From the NCBI GenBank assembly GCA_020402865.1, contig JADBYT010000002.1, positions 310,001 to 374,000 on the forward strand: a stretch of DNA of 64,000 nt, given 5' to 3'. The translations under genes were made by a program, and so were the position numbers. This document shows, one piece after another, positions 6,188 to 10,105 of this stretch (its first letter is position 1; the number at the start of each line of letters is the position of its first letter). The notes below the pieces were generated by a model. It saw only the letters and a list, made by a program, of their open reading frames with translations. It ran no database searches and had not been told where the DNA came from. Source of the DNA: Bacteroidota bacterium. Its GTDB lineage: Bacteria; Bacteroidota; Bacteroidia; Palsa-965.

Positions 6188-6226
6188 CAAAAAAACAGGC
6201 TGTTTCCGTGTGTCGGAAACAGCCTG
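6188..6226 (-). terminator. Rho-independent terminator after the lipocalin-like lipoprotein gene
   Basis: A 12-bp perfect stem (6196-6207 with 6215-6226, CAGGCTGTTTCC/GGAAACAGCCTG) with a 7-base loop, followed on the minus strand by a T-rich run (6195-6189). It closes the 10.1-6.2 kb transcription unit. Confidence 0.9.
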
Positions 6227-6242
6227 CGAGGACTCGATGATT

Positions 6243-6710
6243 TTACATCTTCTCCAGCTTCATCACCACCGTTTGCCCCGGAAAACCAACGGCATTGGTA
6301 GTGGTAAACTCCATCACACTCTTCTTCCTTTCCTTCACTTCATACACGCCGCTGAAATTCTGGCACTGAATAATGTTTTCTTCCGCCTCGTGACCGCCGC
6401 CGTGTGTGTCTTCAATGCTGCTCTGGTTCGAAAGCTCAAACTTTTTGGCTTTTTCCCTGAACTGCCAGATGAAATGTGCATGGTAGCTGTGGTTGGTCCA
6501 GTCGCCTTTGCATGACGCGCCACCGTAAATATCGCAGTCTTCAAACGTAAGTGTGGGCAAATGATCCTGCGCCACACCATCAACGGTGAGTGTGGTTACT
6601 TTCCATGTAGCGCCGCTCAACCGGTCAGATGCCTGTTTGGTTTTGTTGCAGGCGCCCAGCACAAGCAGCAGGCAGATGGTGATTGAAGCAAAAATGGTGT
6701 TCTTTTTCAT
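6243..6710 (-). CDS. His-containing lipocalin-like lipoprotein
   Basis: A 155-residue protein with a lipoprotein signal (MKKNTIFASITICLLLVLGA, lipobox cysteine at residue 21). The rest, LSGATWKVTTLTVDG near the start and YEVKERKKSVMEFT near the end, resembles the small lipocalin-like lipoproteins of Bacteroidota. Two histidine clusters stand out: NHSYHAHF near residue 75 and DTHGGGHEAEE near residue 105, suggesting metal contact. It lies 21 bp after the 190-residue lipoprotein and is the last gene of the TonB receptor unit, directly before a terminator. No exact family is recognised; the metal-related role is inferred from the histidines and neighbours. Confidence 0.65.
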   Translation of the reverse strand: MKKNTIFASITICLLLVLGACNKTKQASDRLSGATWKVTTLTVDGVAQDHLPTLTFEDCDIYGGASCKGDWTNHSYHAHFIWQFREKAKKFELSNQSSIEDTHGGGHEAEENIIQCQNFSGVYEVKERKKSVMEFTTTNAVGFPGQTVVMKLEKM

Positions 6711-6731
6711 GGTGTGTATCGGTTATTGAGG

Positions 6732-7304
6732 TTATTGAATAATTGTCTGGAAGGTTACATCCACATCCGTATCGCCGGTAGCCACGTTGCCGTTTTTAAT
6801 GCCGGGCTGATGCTTGAGAATGACTTGCGTAGTACCTGTGGAGGCTGCACCGGTGCGGAATTTATTCTGCAAACCGATGGGCAGCGGGGGCGTATTGGTA
6901 TCACTGTCGAGGTAAGTGTGTGTAACGCCGGCGCCGGTAAAGCTGAAGAAGAACTGGTGGTCGTTGGCTTCTTCAAGTACTTCGTTTGAAATGGTATCCA
7001 CCGGACTGGCAAGTGTATTCAACAACACCACATCAACCAGATACGTTTTGGAAGGCTGCAAACGAAGCGTATCCCAGCGCGAGGGAACACCGCTGCCGTC
7101 GCCGTCTGGATCGAGAAAAACTACTGTATCCACCGCATTGCCCGTAGCCGAATCGGTGACCACAAGTTGCAGACTGGTAATAATTTCCTGCTCATTCACC
7201 ACGGGCGGCGGCACAGTTACCTGATCGTCGTCTTTTTTGCAGGCGGTGAAAATTGAAGTTGCGGCTACAGCCACAATGAAGTATTTTTTGAATTGCGTGT
7301 TCAT
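6732..7304 (-). CDS. TonB-receptor-associated surface lipoprotein (conserved Bacteroidota family)
   Basis: A 190-residue lipoprotein: signal sequence, lipobox FTAC (cysteine about residue 21) and then KKDDD, an acidic/lysine stretch that resembles a lipoprotein surface-export signal. The conserved pattern NEQEIITSLQLVVTD, a DPDGDG segment, and NEVLEEANDHQFFFSF is one I recognise from a Bacteroidota lipoprotein family usually encoded beside TonB-dependent receptors, sometimes labelled 'type 1 periplasmic binding fold' without experimental support. It follows the receptor by only 6 bp, so it is very likely a substrate-binding or accessory partner of that receptor. Substrate not known. Confidence 0.7.
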   Translation of the reverse strand: MNTQFKKYFIVAVAATSIFTACKKDDDQVTVPPPVVNEQEIITSLQLVVTDSATGNAVDTVVFLDPDGDGSGVPSRWDTLRLQPSKTYLVDVVLLNTLASPVDTISNEVLEEANDHQFFFSFTGAGVTHTYLDSDTNTPPLPIGLQNKFRTGAASTGTTQVILKHQPGIKNGNVATGDTDVDVTFQTIIQ

Positions 7305-7310
7305 ACTATT

Positions 7311-9683
7311 TTAATGCTGATTGTTTGAATTGTTTGAGGGCCTGAAATTAAATGGTATTTGTACATACAGCCTGATGTTACGGCCCATATCATCGGCATA
7401 GTAACGGAAACGGTTCAGGTAATCGCGGTAGGTTTCGTTCAGTAAATTGGTTACTGTAATTCCCGCGTTTATCTGCTGTCCGTTTGCCCACACAAAACTG
7501 GCACCGGCCTGCATGCGTACTAAGGTATATGCACCCGGTGGCGCAACAAAATCGCTGTTTTGTGGTACTCTGAATTGTTTGTTCACATATTGCACTCCGG
7601 CACCGGCATAGGCATTGCGGATGCGCTTTTTGTCTTTCCAGTCGTACTGCAAACCAAGTTCAAAACGATCGGCAGGCATAAGAATGAGCCAGTCGTTAAG
7701 ATCATGGTTCCATGCGCGGAGTATGGATGCTTTACCTGTGGCCGAAATGCCCCGGGAAAGTGTACGCCGCACTGAAAAGTCAGCACCGCGCAGCGTTACA
7801 TTGGCCTGCGAAAAACGGAAGGTGGGAAATGCACCCTGAATACTCACCGTGGGCGGCATTACCGGCCGGGCAAAAATGAAACCGGCAATGTAGTTGTAAT
7901 ACACACTCACTTCGGCATCCATTACTTCGTGTTCGTGCCAGTTAAACGCTGCGGTGGCATTGTAGGCCGTTTCGGGCGTGAGGTTGCGGTCGCCAATTTC
8001 TACCGATGCAGCGCCGTGGTGCAGGCCATCGCTGTAAAGCTCGTTTACCGAAGGCGAGCGCCAGGCCGTGCCGGCATTAATAAGCAACATTGCTTTTTCG
8101 CTGAAACGGAAGGTGGCACCCAAAATGGCCGTGGCGTTGGCAAAGGTGTGAACCGGCGTTATCACCACGTTGTTTTCCCATTTAAACACTTCCAGCTTCC
8201 GGTACTCGGCGCGCACACCGGCTTCGAGTGTAAGCAGCGAGTCGCCATGCCAGCGTTCGGTGGCCCACACGGCAGCGGTGCGGTTCCGGAAATTGGGAAT
8301 GAAAAACCGCCCGGCATAGGTGTTTGCCTGATGCTGCGCTGTAACGCCAAACGCGCCTGTAAACCGCCCCACTGCTTTATGCTCGGCCAGCACTTCGGCA
8401 AAATGCGAAGTGATTTCGTAGCTCAGGTCGGGGCGGTTGAGTGCTGCCAGCGAATCGTTTCGCGGCCGGTGCTTGTCGTACTCTAAGCGCTTGTTGTACT
8501 GCCGCGCATACACGGCTTCCAGCGTCCACACATCACTTAAATGGTAATGCAGTTTTGCTTTGGCCAGTTCATGTTCCACCTGCTGAAACGGCCGGCCAAT
8601 GGTGTAGCTGAACGAATCGGGAGCAAGCGGGCGCACGCTGTTAAACGCGGTGTACAAATCGGTAATGTTGCCGATGTGCGAGCCGGAGAAGATGCCAATT
8701 TTGGTGTTGAACTGGCTGTAATACACTTCGGCTTCCATGCGCTCGCGGTGCCAGCCGGCGGCGGCCGAGAAATTGGCTTCGCTTACTCCGGTGTTCCACA
8801 GGCGGTAGTTGGGCGTATTTACATTTCCGCCCCGGCGCAGCGTACCCTGCACACGCCAGCTCAGCGAAGGCAAACGGGCAAAGTTCTGTTCAACCATAAG
8901 CGAAGCATTCCCTTCGCGGTTGTTGCTGAAACCGGCCAGATGCATTTCACCGCCAAGTCCGGCGCTGTCGCGCAGGGCACCGGGTTCTACCAGTACCACG
9001 CCGCCCAGTGCATCGCTGCCGTAGCGCATACTGCCGGCGCCTTTTATAACCGTAATGCGCTTTGCGGTAAACGGATCTATTTCGGGCGCATGCTCAAGCC
9101 CCCATTGCTGGCCTTCCTGCCGCACACCGTTGTTCAGTATCAGAATACGGTTGCTGTGCAGGCCGTGAATCATGGGTTTGGCAATGTTTGAGCCGGTTTG
9201 CAGCGCAGTAACACCGGTTATGGCTGTAAGCGCCTCGCCCAGCGATTTGCCGCGCACCTGATCGAGTGTGCGGCCGCTGAGTTCTTCGCGGGGCTGACTG
9301 ATGCCTGTGGCCGGAGCCTGCTCGCTTATTACCACTGTGGGGCCGGTGTGCTCGTGGTGCGGAAGCCCGAAGTCGAGCACTGTGTTTTCGGTAAGCGAAA
9401 ACGTTTTGCGCATCATTTCGCAGTTCAGGTGCGAGCATTCGGCCGTGTACTCGCCACTGCAAAGTGCACGGAAACCGTAACGGCCCTTTTCATCGGCATA
9501 GGTCGCAGTAACGGCGCCCGAGCCCAGATGCCGGAGCCGTATAAATGCATACGGCAGCACCTCGCTCCGCCCCGAATCGCGCACCACGCCCGAAAGCGAT
9601 AAACTGCATCCGGCCAATGCCTGTTGTGCCTGCAGCGGCAAATACAGCATTGCACCGAACATCAGTAAAATGAATGTTCGCAT
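7311..9683 (-). CDS. TonB-dependent outer-membrane receptor, ZnuD-like
   Basis: A 790-residue receptor. After a signal peptide (about 1-20), a carboxypeptidase-regulatory-like domain (about 28-105: LSGVVRDSGRSEVLPYAFIR) precedes the plug, with SLGEALTAITGVTALQTGSN, MIHGLHSNRILILNNGVRQE and VIKGAGSMRYGSDALGGVV. A 22-strand barrel occupies the rest. A histidine cluster (LPHHEHTG, about residue 108) and the EHAPEIDPF plug motif are features of the metal-type receptors related to ZnuD. Transport across the outer membrane is driven by TonB-ExbBD. The gene lies 62 bp after a His-rich secreted protein gene and 6 bp before a lipoprotein gene. Zinc as substrate is inference; copper, nickel or a metallophore are alternatives. 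Confidence 0.85.
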   Translation of the reverse strand: MRTFILLMFGAMLYLPLQAQQALAGCSLSLSGVVRDSGRSEVLPYAFIRLRHLGSGAVTATYADEKGRYGFRALCSGEYTAECSHLNCEMMRKTFSLTENTVLDFGLPHHEHTGPTVVISEQAPATGISQPREELSGRTLDQVRGKSLGEALTAITGVTALQTGSNIAKPMIHGLHSNRILILNNGVRQEGQQWGLEHAPEIDPFTAKRITVIKGAGSMRYGSDALGGVVLVEPGALRDSAGLGGEMHLAGFSNNREGNASLMVEQNFARLPSLSWRVQGTLRRGGNVNTPNYRLWNTGVSEANFSAAAGWHRERMEAEVYYSQFNTKIGIFSGSHIGNITDLYTAFNSVRPLAPDSFSYTIGRPFQQVEHELAKAKLHYHLSDVWTLEAVYARQYNKRLEYDKHRPRNDSLAALNRPDLSYEITSHFAEVLAEHKAVGRFTGAFGVTAQHQANTYAGRFFIPNFRNRTAAVWATERWHGDSLLTLEAGVRAEYRKLEVFKWENNVVITPVHTFANATAILGATFRFSEKAMLLINAGTAWRSPSVNELYSDGLHHGAASVEIGDRNLTPETAYNATAAFNWHEHEVMDAEVSVYYNYIAGFIFARPVMPPTVSIQGAFPTFRFSQANVTLRGADFSVRRTLSRGISATGKASILRAWNHDLNDWLILMPADRFELGLQYDWKDKKRIRNAYAGAGVQYVNKQFRVPQNSDFVAPPGAYTLVRMQAGASFVWANGQQINAGITVTNLLNETYRDYLNRFRYYADDMGRNIRLYVQIPFNFRPSNNSNNQH

Positions 9684-9707
9684 GAGTATTAACTGAATAG
9701 ATCACAC

Positions 9708-9729
9708 GTTGCATTGTGTAAAATGCAAC
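9708..9729. promoter_or_regulatory. Inverted repeat upstream of the TonB receptor, candidate operator
   Basis: A perfect 8-6-8 inverted repeat, GTTGCATT-N6-AATGCAAC, in the 62-bp gap between the His-rich protein gene and the receptor start (25 bases before the ATG at 9683). The length and symmetry fit a dimeric metalloregulator such as a Fur/Zur-family protein. There is no T-tract, so it is not a typical terminator. The identity of the regulator is inference. Confidence 0.5.
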
Positions 9730-9745
9730 AACCGGAAAAGCGGTG

Positions 9746-10093
9746 TTAACCTATCAGCTGCGGCGGGCCGCGCAGAAAAAGAAAAGAGGGTTCGGAAAGG
9801 AAAACCGGACTTACTACCAGTGCCGCGTGCGCATAGCTGTGTGCGGCAATTACCGGTCTGAAAATAAACTCATGTGCTGCACACGATTCGCCTTCAAGCT
9901 GCTCAAATGTACAATGCACGTGTGCGTGGCCGATTGTAGTTCCGGCTTTGCTAACGGCTGTAATCTCGTGCTCGGTATCGTTGTGCGGAAATAACTCGTG
10001 AATGAGTTCCTGCGGAAGCAAATGCACGGCAAACAGCAGCATGGCCACCCATGCTCCCTGCTTTTTTACAAACTGCCGTGTACGTTGCAACAT
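9746..10093 (-). CDS. Small His-rich exported protein upstream of the TonB receptor
   Basis: A 115-residue protein. The N-terminus is basic then hydrophobic (RTRQFVKKQGAWVAMLLFAV), consistent with a signal peptide or single membrane anchor. Ten of 115 residues are histidine, in the groups ELFPHNDTEHE, IGHAHVHC and AAHSYAHAA, and there are two cysteines. It ends with FLFLRGPPQLIG. I do not recognise a named family, but small proteins with this layout sit in front of TonB receptor genes in Bacteroidota. A metal-binding or sensing role is inferred. A second in-frame methionine (residue 18, base 10042) could be the start if transcription begins at the -7 element at 10098-10105. Confidence 0.55.
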   Translation of the reverse strand: MLQRTRQFVKKQGAWVAMLLFAVHLLPQELIHELFPHNDTEHEITAVSKAGTTIGHAHVHCTFEQLEGESCAAHEFIFRPVIAAHSYAHAALVVSPVFLSEPSFLFLRGPPQLIG

Positions 10094-10097
10094 GTCG

Positions 10098-10105
10098 CAA
10101 AGTTA
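10098..10105 (-). promoter_or_regulatory. -7 promoter element before the His-rich protein gene
   Basis: The minus strand reads TAACTTTG, an exact TAnnTTTG match, ending 4 bases before the ATG at 10093. A start of transcription about 7 bases downstream would make the mRNA almost leaderless, or the true start codon is the later one at 10042. No clear -33 TTG is seen. Confidence 0.35.

Follow-up and report, generated by a model that had tools for sequence, protein, structure and literature searches.

A candidate outer-membrane zinc-acquisition operon of Bacteroidota with a ZnuD-like receptor and partner proteins

We propose that four adjoining genes of a Bacteroidota bacterium form an outer-membrane zinc-acquisition operon of this phylum, made up of a ZnuD-like receptor and its partners, and we assign this reading a probability of about 0.78. 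The genes lie in the window, by which we mean the whole 64,000-nucleotide stretch that was analyzed (G000:C2:310001-374000). The proposal is sequence-based, drawing on operon structure, homology, ligand conservation and, in relatives, a Zur-type box together with zur/zigA linkage. An earlier note on this DNA had suggested a metal (zinc-like) uptake unit with undescribed partners; that suggestion is now carried by ZnuD homology including the ligands, by Zur-type boxes and by zur, zigA and merC neighbors in relatives, and not by the histidine clusters and the palindrome from which it had been argued. The literature searched, which included few subscription journals and is not proof of absence, held no description of a Bacteroidota Zur regulon or of a zinc receptor with a lipoprotein. 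The box, the 190-aa lipoprotein and the small protein were likewise not described there, in agreement with the earlier view of the lipoproteins and the small His-rich protein as undescribed. Nor did we find in that literature an account of zinc passage across the Bacteroidota outer membrane, for which the operon is a widespread candidate, with related receptors in 133 of the 395 sampled genomes of the class. It offers an operator that can be tested, a probable Zur for Bacteroidota and two uncharacterized protein families that the proposal ties to zinc, and relatives are present in cultured genera, e.g. Dyadobacter, Runella, Spirosoma and Chitinophaga.

The operon and its receptor

Four minus-strand open reading frames run in one direction from 10093 to 6243, and their products are 115, 790, 190 and 155 aa long; from gene 1 to gene 4 the intervening gaps measure 62, 6 and 21 bases. 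We confirmed the collinearity, the coordinates, the gaps of 6-62 bases and the 10 histidines of the 115-aa protein as noted before; the PHHEH, NHSYHAH and DTHGGGHE stretches were also present, and genes 3 and 4 each have a lipobox Cys. An intrinsic terminator that the earlier note did not contain ends the operon after gene 4 (6189..6227, minus strand), with a 14-bp stem (6227-6195; -25.2 kcal/mol, z -5.8) and a T run after it. The strength of this terminator suggests that the minus-strand gene at 6104-4608 is probably not part of the operon. The latter gene encodes a cytochrome c/beta-propeller lipoprotein, a homologue of which also follows gene 4 in the same-genus genome G002 (L043, gap of 111 bases).

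Gene 2 (7311..9683, minus strand) was identified as a ZnuD-like TonB-dependent receptor by homology and by ligand alignment. The protein carries the Pfam domains Plug, TonB barrel and CarboxypepD_reg, and it fell below the cut-off of every NCBIfam receptor model, including the SusC/RagA signature TIGR04057 (14.7 bits, cut-off 46.2). The nearest solved structure was that of ZnuD, with an E value of 1e-16 for the single sequence and 6.4e-43 for a profile of 50 relatives. The zinc ligands of ZnuD are Asp99, His100, Glu340 and His499 (PMC4557270). Asp99 aligns with E197 of gene 2 (40 E and 10 D among the 50 relatives), His100 with H198 and His499 with H555, each of the two histidines being present in 50/50 relatives, and the alignment of Glu340 is ambiguous between the invariant E401 and the variable E423. 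Three of the four ZnuD ligands map in this way to candidate zinc ligands, namely E197 and H198 in the plug and H555 in a barrel loop. The closeness to ZnuD among solved structures and the conserved ligands bear out the description of the receptor as ZnuD-like, but the PHHEH cluster that had been read as a metal signal proved variable, with H112 of this stretch found in only 7/50 receptors.

Gene 2 and ZnuD of Neisseria meningitidis (PDB 4rdr; NF038289) have in common the receptor fold and three of the four zinc ligands. They differ in that gene 2 scored 84.9 bits against the curated ZnuD cut-off of 950 bits, and in its N-terminal CarboxypepD_reg domain and its lipoprotein companion, which was found in 54/61 loci. 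The ZnuD family is under Zur control, as are many relatives of the window operon by prediction, whereas the window operon itself has no Zur box.

Partner proteins and conservation of the gene set

The survey comprised 395 sampled genomes of the class, from which 61 loci were examined, and a second set of 80 further loci was taken from named genomes. The 190-aa lipoprotein family was linked to the receptor in 54 of the 61 loci (L082 counted as linked) and the small Cys/His protein family was present in 44, while the lipocalin-like gene was recovered in only 7, always immediately 3' of the lipoprotein gene. In the named set the lipoprotein was linked in 65/80 loci, the small gene was present in 35/80 and the lipocalin-like gene in 1/80. 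The receptor and the 190-aa lipoprotein, usually joined by the small Cys/His protein, make up the conserved core; the lipocalin-like gene is a local addition confined to few lineages. The lipoprotein had rightly been placed in a family found beside such receptors; across the loci examined, linkage held for the receptor/lipoprotein pair, and often for the small gene, but not for the lipocalin-like gene. The receptor was split over two reading frames in L005, L006 and L082 (G004:C10; same-genus genome, 72% complete), through either sequencing error or gene decay.

Gene 3 (6732..7304, minus strand) is the core partner of the receptor, as judged by its linkage, its invariant residues and its structural model. 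Besides the lipid-bearing Cys, the family invariants are E40, H116, G144, L163, H165 and D180, and the model is a beta-sandwich with a pLDDT of 89. No family model and no solved relative matched the family, no match to DUF4876 (the PG1019 family) was obtained among 45 family members at E 0.01, and a Foldseek search of the fold against the PDB gave nothing under E 0.001. A likeness of the fold to a nuclear-pore chain was unconvincing, the best Z of 8.9 being near the usual background, and a homology between genes 3 and 4, raised by an iterated gene 3 profile that pulled in gene 4, was treated as profile contamination. The C-K-K-D-D-D start is similar to the signal for surface export in Bacteroidota lipoproteins and, together with the invariant His and acidic residues, suggests that the gene 3 product acts at the cell surface, capturing zinc or capping the receptor. 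We put forward, tentatively and at a little below even odds, that members of the gene 3 family may work with the ZnuD-like receptor by capturing zinc at the surface or acting as a lid, in a lipoprotein-assisted zinc uptake of Bacteroidota, and that a small Cys/His protein dedicated to carrying zinc in the envelope would go with it. There is precedent for lipoprotein-assisted uptake in the SusD-like proteins, which assist sugar uptake, and in HmuY and XusB, which assist iron uptake.

Gene 1 (9746..10093, minus strand), an open reading frame whose family is the small Cys/His-rich one counted above, encodes a protein with 10 His, or 8.7%, compared to an average of 2.5% and a 95th percentile of 6.1% among the remaining proteins of 80-200 aa encoded at these loci. 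The protein has a hydrophobic N-terminus and a C-terminal RGPP, and in the family alignment (A1) H32, H37, C61 and the C-terminal RGPP/RAPP are nearly invariant. It had no Pfam match. The product is probably a membrane-anchored envelope metal carrier.

Gene 4 (6243..6710, minus strand) reached no Pfam cut-off, META alone appearing at 13.6 of 24 bits, and its assignment as a lipocalin-like lipoprotein comes from the fold model. The model (pLDDT 83.7) matched 5epq with a Z of 11.3 and an rmsd of 2.7 over 102 residues, and 4qrl with a Z of 10.6 and an rmsd of 2.2 over 98 residues, pointing to a predicted lipocalin-type barrel at the level of fold only. Such a barrel is common to gene 4 and to Bacteroides lipocalin-like proteins (e.g. 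PDB 4qrl), from which gene 4 differs by the lack of a family-level sequence match and by adjoining a metal receptor gene. The His clusters of gene 4 are kept within the genus and are absent in L060 and L061. Given this loss and the variability of PHHEH, we do not count the histidine clusters in three of the four proteins as evidence for metal uptake.

Control sites and zur linkage

The box TGCAACnnnGTTGCA is a palindrome that lies 7 to 60 bases 5' of many of the operons. With at most two mismatches it preceded 15 of the 61 operons, compared to none for two control patterns, and it was found at 39 of the 80 named loci, compared to 3 for a control pattern. Its presence followed that of a Zur-like Fur-family gene, as 14/27 genomes with such a gene but 1/34 without it had the box (p 1e-5), and the same held when taxonomic families were counted (10/15 vs 1/14, p 0.002). 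In seven genomes, belonging to six families (G233, G242, G343, G085, G266, G193 and G361), a Zur-like gene was located less than 1 kb from the receptor, where random placement would give about 0.07 genomes. Across the class, receptors and Zur-like genes co-occur weakly (60/133 vs 88/262, p 0.03). The nearest relatives of the window's receptor are mostly without zur and box, so that zinc is argued there from homology and conserved ligands.

Several arrangements of these genes were recovered: box-lipoprotein-receptor-zur in L251, L254 and L255, receptor-lipoprotein-zur-MerC in Dyadobacter (L173 and others), and receptor-ZigA-lipoprotein in Runella (L217). The box also lies 5' of zur and the zinc GTPase ZigA in L143 and 5' of a MerC-FolE-ZigA operon in L144, with ZigA scores of up to 572 bits in the box regulon, and in G351 (L120) a gene 3 family member away from the receptor has an exact box of its own, placed between it and MerC. 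In G365 (L122) an exact box separates MerC from an ABC ATPase/FtsX-type permease pair.

A candidate zinc island was found in G363 (L250), where an exact box directly precedes zur and a two-mismatch box directly precedes a divergent small Cys/His gene. The zur-headed run comprises about 13 genes (L250:4394-16394) and is collinear from the small Cys/His gene onward, in the order small Cys/His protein, ZigA, two NicO-type transporters, a ferredoxin-like protein, a short ORF, a second COG0523 GTPase, a WD40 protein, an HMA-domain protein, receptor, lipoprotein, lipocalin-like lipoprotein and a His-rich coiled-coil protein. This single zur-headed island thus brings together the four gene types of the window, and its receptor is 48% identical to that of the window. 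Coiled-coil proteins with His at about every seventh residue (HEAWVKQ...EHKATEEKH...), possibly metal-binding rods, are also encoded by the third gene past the receptor in L048 and by the gene ahead of the receptor in L076.

At the window's own operon, we found no Zur-type box at standard spacing with up to three mismatches. A Bacteroidota-type -7 element TAACTTTG, putatively assigned by eye, and a near-Zur-box TTGCGACATGTTGCAA occupy 10082..10104 (minus strand); this near-Zur-box, TTGCGACA-TGTTGCAA, covers the gene 1 start codon and has a spacer one base below consensus. Between genes 1 and 2 lies the perfect palindrome GTTGCATT-N6-AATGCAAC (9708..9729), the arms of which hold GTTGCA, the half-site of the Zur box, in everted order. 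Only 9/2000 shuffles of this gap produced a perfect 8-bp inverted repeat of any kind, which places the palindrome beyond chance. The same-genus genome G002 lacks it and has another hairpin at that place, and no second exact copy was found in the window's genome; the palindrome reported in front of the receptor is therefore real, but it does not hold up as a conserved operator.

The window's genome does contain a Zur-like gene (G000:C21:33234-33623), divergent from a ZigA gene (556 bits, cut-off 600) with a one-mismatch box between them (G000:C21:33174). The operon lacks a standard-spacing box even though zur and zigA are in the genome, and Zur control here is a matter of inference. Both genes are absent from G002, suggesting that the operon in this genus may have another control and that G000 may have gained its zur/ZigA pair recently, possibly by transfer. 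The pair (G000:C21:31932-33623; L130, L246) is missing from genus and family mates. Genes for the nearest relatives of the G000 regulator (L134, L135, L137, L139, L142 and L145) are divergent from a gene for a thioredoxin-reductase-like oxidoreductase, with box-like sites between the two in most; we know of no zinc link for this oxidoreductase. A one-mismatch box before a ZIP-containing operon of the window's genome (L108) was not counted because the chance expectation of one-mismatch sites is about the number seen.

Known systems, mechanism and choice of metal

Zur-controlled zinc TonB receptors are known in other phyla, in Pseudomonas, Caulobacter, Acinetobacter and Anabaena (PMC6103462). 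A Zur box, a COG0523/ZigA GTPase, FolE and a TonB receptor belong to one regulon there, as they appear to in the Bacteroidota relatives; the predicted Bacteroidota set differs by its own box, by the frequent presence of MerC and by two partner families that are absent from PMC6103462. The zinc exoprotein ZepA was considered and rejected, its homologues being reported only in phyla other than Bacteroidota (PMC10957091).

The mechanism that follows is inferred as to what is transported and in which direction, what each partner does and how the operon is regulated in the window's genome. The gene 2 receptor would take up zinc, free or chelated, at E197 and H198 of the plug and H555 of the barrel loop, and TonB energy would release the zinc into the periplasm. 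The gene 3 surface lipoprotein, as the constant partner of the receptor, would capture zinc or cap the receptor, and the gene 1 protein and, in this lineage, the gene 4 lipoprotein would probably buffer envelope zinc on its way to an inner-membrane transporter. In many relatives, Zur would repress the operon at plentiful zinc.

TonB receptor and lipoprotein pairs for iron or haem, such as HmuR/HmuY, XusA/XusB and PG1019-1022, are common in Bacteroidota, and the operon shares with them a lipoprotein gene adjoining the receptor gene. A haem or iron uptake system is nonetheless unlikely in our estimation. It is favored by the structural relatedness of ZnuD itself to haem receptors, by the haem receptor model TIGR01785 as the best NCBIfam match of gene 2 and by H555, which aligns with the loop histidine in haem receptors as well, and we also counted for it the iron regulation of PG1019-1022 (PMC10434189). 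The TIGR01785 score of 157.7 bits is, however, below the cut-off of 316.85 bits, and in the profile search against solved structures ZnuD was ahead of haem receptors by about 96 bits. The known pairs are iron-regulated and have other lipoprotein families, to which gene 3 has no sequence match, the DUF4876 family of PG1019 included, whereas the present operon type has Zur-type boxes and ZigA, MerC and FolE as neighbors.

The same Zur-type context argues against a unit for copper uptake or homeostasis, the least probable of the alternatives and a very unlikely one. Gene 1 has a weak similarity to LpqS, a mycobacterial copper protein (NF052429; 14.4 bits, E 0.035, cut-off 35), but none of 36 gene 1 family members matched LpqS at E 0.01. 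Of the receptor types among the solved relatives, the copper receptor OprC comes second in its length range, and in L250 an HMA-domain protein is encoded ahead of the receptor; on the other side, OprC binds copper through Cys and Met, the gene 2 plug has no Cys, and the TonB-copper model TIGR01778 gave 41.6 bits against a cut-off of 472.45. A nickel (or cobalt) uptake system under a nickel-sensing Fur-family regulator deserves consideration because TTGCAA-N5-TTGCAA, the form of the box, resembles the Nur box of Streptomyces, and because the L250 island has two NicO-type transporter genes, but we regard it as distinctly improbable, more so than haem or iron. The receptor is nearest to ZnuD, and the box regulon includes ZigA and the operon of L144 in which ZigA, FolE and MerC are joined. 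In addition, the G000 regulator scored 27.5 bits with M. tuberculosis Zur and 20.7 bits with 3eyy, which we take to be Nur; the closer resemblance to Zur, together with ZigA and FolE, supports zinc over nickel.
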